Source: a bacterium
GTDB taxonomy: Bacteria; SM23-81; DAOVCL01
Length of the DNA: 12,164 nt
Assembly: GCA_029932675.1 (NCBI GenBank)
Contig: JAOZPP010000087.1
Location: 1-12,164 of the forward strand
Reading direction: 5' to 3'
Shown one piece after another: positions 3,621 to 3,746 of this stretch; within the stretch, counting starts at the first letter, position 1, and every line of letters starts with the position of its first letter. Position numbers and translations under genes: made by a program. The notes beneath the pieces are model-generated. The model worked only from the letters and a program-made list of their open reading frames with translations. It did not search any database and was not told the origin of the DNA.

Positions 3621-3746
3621 CTACGGTGCTGGGCATGGGGATGTGCAGGCCTGTGCTGGGCCTAACTCCTCTAAGATGTCATCCTCATGGTAGGTTATTA
3701 CCTTAGGAGCCTCATACTTGGGGTGCCCCTTGACCTCTTTCTCCAT
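3621..3746 (-). CDS. candidate RiPP precursor peptide, 41 residues, YxxP leader and Cys-x3-Cys tail
   Basis: A short gene with an excellent ribosome site: AGGAGG ends nine bases before the ATG. It encodes 41 residues. The leader MEKEVKGHPK is followed by YEAPKVITYHEDDILEELG, then the tail GPAQACTSPCPAP and a TAG stop. A YxxP motif followed by a hydrophobic-acidic stretch is the kind of leader element that PqqD-type recognition domains bind in lasso-peptide systems. Here the match is by resemblance only. The tail is short, rich in Pro, Ala and Cys (C34, C38), and separated from the acidic leader by LG, as expected for a core peptide. It lies between a stand-alone PqqD gene and a PqqD-radical SAM gene on the same strand, which makes it the natural substrate. 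The modification and cleavage site cannot be read from sequence. A non-RiPP small protein remains possible. Confidence 0.75.
   Translation of the reverse strand: MEKEVKGHPKYEAPKVITYHEDDILEELGPAQACTSPCPAP

Follow-up and report, generated by a model that had tools for sequence, protein, structure and literature searches.

A short YxxP-leader peptide with a fixed tail, tied to a PqqD-radical SAM enzyme and encoded beside exported proteins

PqqD-type domains bind leader peptides that carry a [Y/W]xxPx[V/L...] element (PMC13381572, PMC12710340, PMC9266682), and HprK-like kinases phosphorylate a serine of the precursor in paeninodin-type systems and in those of linear polyphosphorylated peptides (LPP; PMC13381572, PMC9266682). 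The closest studied parallel to the locus described here is the LPP system of Bacillota, published in 2026, in which the leader is cut by an archaeal-type signal peptidase with the assistance of the recognition domain, and in which the combination of HprK-like kinase, archaeal-type signal peptidase and YxxPxV leader has been shown experimentally (PMC13381572). As regards surface proteins, the PorU enzyme known from Porphyromonas cleaves off the C-terminal domain of its cargo and attaches the freed end to an amino-acid-bearing sugar (PMC8545088, PMC7468200).

The window that we analyzed is an entire contig of 12,164 nucleotides (JAOZPP010000087.1); any PorU-like or S26 genes would lie beyond its end. 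The operon lies on the minus strand, and its coordinates are given here in the reading direction. It begins with a c-di-GMP-I riboswitch at 4756-4684 (Rfam RF01051, 46.1 bits, cut-off 35), placed about 390 nt upstream of the gene for a stand-alone PqqD-family protein of 91 residues, i.e. a RiPP recognition element (4298-4023; Pfam PF05402, 43.8 bits). The peptide gene comes next, followed by the gene of an exported protein of 408 residues with a signal-peptide-like start (3490-2264). This protein presents an Fn3-like domain, found by a search for that domain (nt 2878-2588), and a T9SS type A-like C-terminal tail (nt 2524-2276; TIGR04183, 35.7 bits, cut-off 23). Further downstream, a 463-residue protein combines a PqqD-like domain, a radical SAM domain and a seven-cysteine SPASM domain (1925-534); we presume it to be the maturase from its Pfam domains and its co-occurrence with the peptide. 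Its CxxxCxxC motif and the seven SPASM cysteines are invariant across seven orthologues. The last gene, at 330-1, runs into the contig end after 110 codons; its product is recognized as the start of an HprK-related kinase from its similarity (30% identity, E 1e-8) to the one encoded beside the radical SAM gene in genome G182. The riboswitch, which is absent from the relatives' loci examined, suggests a control of the operon linked to sessile or surface life.

The peptide gene itself, at 3746-3621, is an ATG...TAG reading frame for 41 residues, MEKEVKGHPKYEAPKVITYHEDDILEELGPAQACTSPCPAP, and a ribosome-binding site, AGGAGGTGAG, can be read directly at 3760-3751, 4 nt 5' of the ATG. The initial annotation had given the position and sequence of this frame correctly, and its ribosome site and the YEAP, ILEELG and C-x3-C elements that it named are all present. 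It had also placed the gene between the stand-alone PqqD and PqqD-radical SAM-SPASM genes, where it indeed lies, leaving out the exported-protein gene; it likewise made no mention of the riboswitch and the kinase start. We divide the peptide into a leader, MEKEVKGHPKYEAPKVITYHEDDILEELG, and a tail, PAQACTSPCPAP, at a presumed boundary with a putative cut site. The leader carries YEAPKV (3716-3699), an element of the YxxPx[V/L/I] type, and the tail carries Cys34-x3-Cys38 (3647-3633), the presumed site of the radical SAM chemistry. A small reading frame with Y..P.[VIL]-x11-LG is expected by chance at a rate of 0.007 per random window of the same composition. The peptide matches no Pfam or NCBIfam model, and we found no description of this family in the literature searched, which covered few subscription journals. 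Just 5' of the peptide there is also a 14-codon reading frame with a good ribosome site, MKNEVRFVLGGFNL, at 3813-3769 on the minus strand; in addition, similar intergenic stretches (TTAGTGCCTTCGTGGCTGA and others), possibly a dispersed repeat, occur on the same strand near 3850-3830, 1975-1940 and 420-390.

The search for relatives started from the single peptide and covered 98 genomes, giving a match behind a PqqD gene in G045 (E 1.3e-9) and five weak matches in G037. An alignment built from the first matches led to further peptides in G182, G316 and G190, and to 15 matches in G386. Weak matches in G211 and G158, which overlap other genes, and in G026 and G028, which sit inside long open frames, were rejected as chance. 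Relatives are counted, at 1 to 15 copies per genome, in six genomes besides that of the window, from two further phylum-level groups, and because of these homologues the overlooked 41-residue frame is a genuine gene of a small peptide family, whose genes are mostly too short for gene calling. Examples are YEAPKVITYHEDDILEELGPAQACTSPCPAP in the window, YVQPEVITYTNDDVIKHLGPAQACSTTPCTVSPSGSGF in G045, YIPPEVITYSSDEILEELGTVQACNSYDSSCGVLYNMQQDNAGF in G190 and YEAPKVLTLGNTELMSRLGPSLSCTGFGGSASC in G386. We tabulated 28 peptides. The Tyr, Pro and Thr of YxxPxVxT and the distance from Tyr to LG are the same in all of them (28/28), and the Val in 27/28. The first cysteine of the tail stands 23 residues past the Tyr in 26/28, and a second cysteine, at variable spacing, is found in nearly all. 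Two diverged copies, at L109 5622-5735 and L073 1283-1402, lack the first cysteine (SHTVFGG and SYTGFGG, respectively) and keep the last one.

The distribution of the peptide coincides with that of the enzyme. In a survey of 386 genomes, the carriers of the peptide and the carriers of a radical SAM orthologue were the same six (G000, which is the window's genome, G190, G037, G316, G182 and G045). Full-length orthologues outside the window's genome scored 264 to 407 bits, and the next protein 138 bits. The odds of drawing the same six by chance are about 1e-13 if genomes are taken as independent, which they are not, three of the six being of one family. A genome of the same genus as the window (G001) has neither peptide nor enzyme, and the same is true of G322 and G387, each belonging to a family with a positive genome; G386, added after the survey, has both. 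Furthermore, in G037, G182, G316 and G386 the peptides are dispersed, unlike the enzyme, which lies on a single contig; the co-occurrence is therefore not mere co-location. Homologous loci devoid of the peptide had been named beforehand as the observation that would speak against a precursor; all seven genomes with the orthologue carry it (7/7).

The neighborhood of the enzyme in the relatives completes what the window shows in part. In G182 the radical SAM/SPASM, HprK-related, PorU-like C25 and S26 signal-peptidase-like genes are consecutive in a cassette headed by PqqD. G037 has PqqD, radical SAM, HprK-related and PorU-like genes up to the contig end, G386 the same cassette genes split over two contigs, and G316 only the middle part. 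In G045, from another phylum-level group, the order is PqqD, peptide, exported protein, radical SAM, HprK-related, PorU-like and S26; in G190 it is peptide, radical SAM, HprK-related and exported protein. The HprK_rel_A match is weak in the relatives' cassettes. Against the archaeal-type signal peptidase model TIGR02228 (cut-off 51.85), the S26 proteins scored 53.7 bits in G386 and 46.5 in G182. With PorU models the cassette C25 proteins reached 254 to 284 bits, short of the 420 required by NF033707; in an alignment of the G045 copy with gingipain R, the catalytic GHG histidine and the cysteine coincide. A PorU-like lineage proper to the cassette was considered and dropped, as the cassette copies form no clade apart from the others. 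No dedicated peptide exporter or immunity gene was seen in the cassettes. With the co-occurrence and the full cassette of the relatives taken together, the view of the peptide as a predicted precursor recognised by PqqD is well supported; what had been proposed for the window alone, a precursor-like peptide with a YxxPxV leader, is now tied to PqqD and radical SAM by the operon and by exact co-occurrence. It is very probably the real substrate of this cassette.

How does this locus compare with the described systems? It shares with LPP a discrete recognition domain, a YxxPxV leader, an HprK-like kinase and an archaeal-type signal peptidase I as candidate leader peptidase, the last two being found together in the relatives, whereas the window shows only the start of the kinase. 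However, the LPP leader consensus YxxPxVLxHQxIxFETxxS is not matched: only YxxPxV is common, and the rest reads xTYxxxxILxxLGP. The SynChlorMet (Scm) system of NCBIfam likewise includes PqqD, the HprK-like ScmC and radical SAM/SPASM proteins, and ScmD is the best model for the PqqD protein of the window, but the scores stay far below the curated cut-offs (ScmD 37.5/100, ScmE 111.6/400, ScmF 103.5/400) and the peptide matches no Scm model. Paeninodin-type lasso peptides have a [Y/W]xxP leader, a PqqD-type B1 protein and an HprK-like kinase acting on a C-terminal Ser; unlike them, neither the window nor the G045, G190 and G182 cassettes contain a macrolactam cyclase or a B2 leader peptidase, and a radical SAM enzyme is present instead. 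With sactipeptide and ranthipeptide maturases (PDB 5WGG; SkfB, 6EFN) the enzyme has in common a radical SAM domain, auxiliary clusters, an N-terminal recognition domain and Cys-bearing substrates, but no curated cut-off is reached (StsB, the best model, 149.1/625; PapB 113.5/340). Finally, the cassette C25 protein matches models of the T9SS sortase PorU and keeps the catalytic GHG His and Cys; unlike PorU, it attains at best 284 of 420, is devoid of the C-terminal third of the model and adjoins a peptide-modification cassette. Two marks expected of a RiPP precursor handled by a PqqD-type recognition element are found here: PF05402, both as a free protein and as the N-terminal domain of the radical SAM protein, and a YxxPxV...LG register held across the 28 peptides that co-occur exactly with the enzyme. 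As judged from these sequence features, the peptide is a predicted precursor of the PqqD/YxxP kind and is neither a lasso peptide nor, given the full leader consensus and the cut-offs, a member of LPP or SynChlorMet. It may be mentioned that another stretch of the window's genome (L066, G000:C62, 219-7534) contains a second PqqD-like radical SAM/SPASM gene (27% identity). Beside it are an HlyD-like gene, two ATP-grasp-like genes and genes of the nucleotidyltransferase-like type, which may together form a further pathway for a peptide or a conjugate.

Another aspect concerns the relative conservation of leader and tail. In the many-copy phylum, pN/pS was 0.15 for the tail, 0.45 for the whole leader and 0.24 for YxxPxVxT; the tail reads GPSLSCTGFGG, with the positions SxSCTGFGG nearly constant, and the middle of the leader is free. 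Between phyla, in contrast, conservation is on the side of the leader, and the tails are different. A tail more conserved than the leader had been put forward by the initial annotation as an argument against a precursor; this was observed inside one phylum and not between phyla. The tail thus appears to be a fixed group within a lineage and not a variable core, and a fixed tail within the phylum speaks against an antibiotic that diversifies but leaves the precursor untouched. The proposal of a new RiPP with a variable tail consequently holds for the precursor and fits poorly for the variable-core natural product, since the tail is fixed and the genes travel with exported proteins.

This last association is recurrent. 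For 26/28 peptide genes, a gene for an exported protein with a shared C-terminal Fn3-like domain lies within 500 nt on the same strand, although peptide and neighbor may have multiplied together in the multi-copy genomes, so that the 26/28 are not independent and represent about three independent lineages. In one of the two exceptions the distance is 1.1 kb, with another peptide copy in between; in the other, from G190, it is 2.6 kb, with the radical SAM and HprK genes of the same gene run in between. The domain follows the pattern WxTxxExDNAGFxxYR...HGP, and the N-terminal parts of the proteins vary (beta-helix, papain, C25 peptidase). G037 has 14 Fn3-like domains in 3.4 Mb, yet 5/5 of its peptides adjoin one, far above chance, with the reservation that entire modules may have been duplicated. 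In the window's genome the neighbor of the peptide has by far the strongest Fn3-like domain, with 141 bits and the next at 38, a difference inflated by the presence of this neighbor in the query alignment. The domain is not restricted to genomes that have the system, being present also in others (G002, G003), where a T9SS tail of about 98 residues mostly follows it. A C-terminal Arg or Lys, seen in 24/30 paired exported proteins, was dropped as a mark of pairing, as unpaired Fn3-like proteins end alike. Taking the pairing as a whole, we consider it rather probable that the product is functionally tied to the neighboring exported proteins.

The pairing is not limited to one peptide family. A different YxxP peptide, YKKPTIKQVKLVPEEAVLGVCKSDTGAGPNQSTCIIPQCFNPGS, adjoins many other Fn3-domain proteins of G045 and G190, and in G190 also a PorU-like gene. 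Its pattern is VxLVPEEAVLGVCK...GPNQSxCIIPQCFNxGS, no NCBIfam or Pfam model exists for it, and at most of its loci (L163, L164, L165, L166, L168 and L169 in G045; L161, L162 and L146 in G190; L188 and L203 in G322) the neighbor is a PorU-like protein or an exported protein with the Fn3 domain. Weaker relatives, of about twelve other families, stand in cassettes of PqqD, radical SAM, peptide, HprK-like and S26 genes. The association of YxxP peptides with exported proteins therefore extends beyond a single peptide family. At L188 (G322:C171, 125-1772), a second-family peptide, a PEP-CTERM protein and a PorU-like peptidase are consecutive.

On balance, we lean towards a peptide of the PqqD/YxxP/radical SAM/HprK type whose product serves the exported proteins and is not an ordinary antibiotic. 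By analogy with known systems, the two PqqD proteins, one free and one fused, would hold the leader through YxxPxV, the radical SAM/SPASM enzyme would act on the short tail, probably at cysteine, the HprK-related kinase may phosphorylate a Ser or Thr of the tail, and the S26 signal-peptidase-like protein would remove the leader near LG(P). The product would be a fixed group, produced together with the exported proteins that share the C-terminal Fn3-like domain and destined for them; the PorU-like C25 peptidase may act on these proteins. One could go further and suppose that the PorU-like sortase joins the mature peptide to the C-terminal side of the Fn3-like proteins, as an anchor or tag of ribosomal origin modified by radical SAM chemistry. 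Such a joining seems improbable, being disfavoured in our data by the lack of an exporter and of a PorU-like clade proper to the cassette, and we are equally doubtful that the peptide would take the place of the amino-acid-bearing linking sugar of A-LPS in Porphyromonas, to which the analogy leads.

Other explanations dispense with a role for the exported proteins or give them a different one. Radical SAM/SPASM, PqqD and a short Cys-bearing precursor are the standard layout for a conventional secreted RiPP, sactipeptide- or ranthipeptide-like, and nearly every tail has two cysteines; the precursor would then be clustered with exported proteins by happenstance. Up to 15 near-identical tails per genome, a tail under more constraint than the leader inside the phylum, cassettes in which no exporter or immunity gene was seen and the repeated pairing with exported proteins make this unlikely. 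The same kind of enzymes also makes redox cofactors derived from peptides, as for PQQ or mycofactocin, and the exported proteins might use one; PqqD and the mycofactocin maturase are among the nearest, though weak, models, and a fixed tail suits a single end product. Nevertheless, all these models score far under their cut-offs, the neighbors are beta-helix, papain and C25 proteins and not dehydrogenases, and 5 to 15 gene copies are more than one cofactor needs, so we regard a cofactor as very unlikely. That the frame is no substrate at all, only a conserved upstream reading frame regulating its neighbor, would agree with the many copies located directly before or after an exported-protein gene, but is scarcely credible for a frame that is often 3' of the neighbor, is under selection at the amino-acid level (pN/pS), co-occurs exactly with the radical SAM enzyme and has the YxxPxV motif.

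The search for RiPP precursors is usually a search for antibiotics whose cores vary. In the present family the tail is fixed, one genome may have up to 15 copies, placed beside exported proteins that are otherwise unrelated, and the cassette includes a protein related to the sortase by which proteins are anchored on the outer surface. If the peptide is truly linked with the exported proteins, radical SAM modification of a peptide would help to make or place surface proteins in little-studied phyla, and the short peptide genes offer a direct test of this link.
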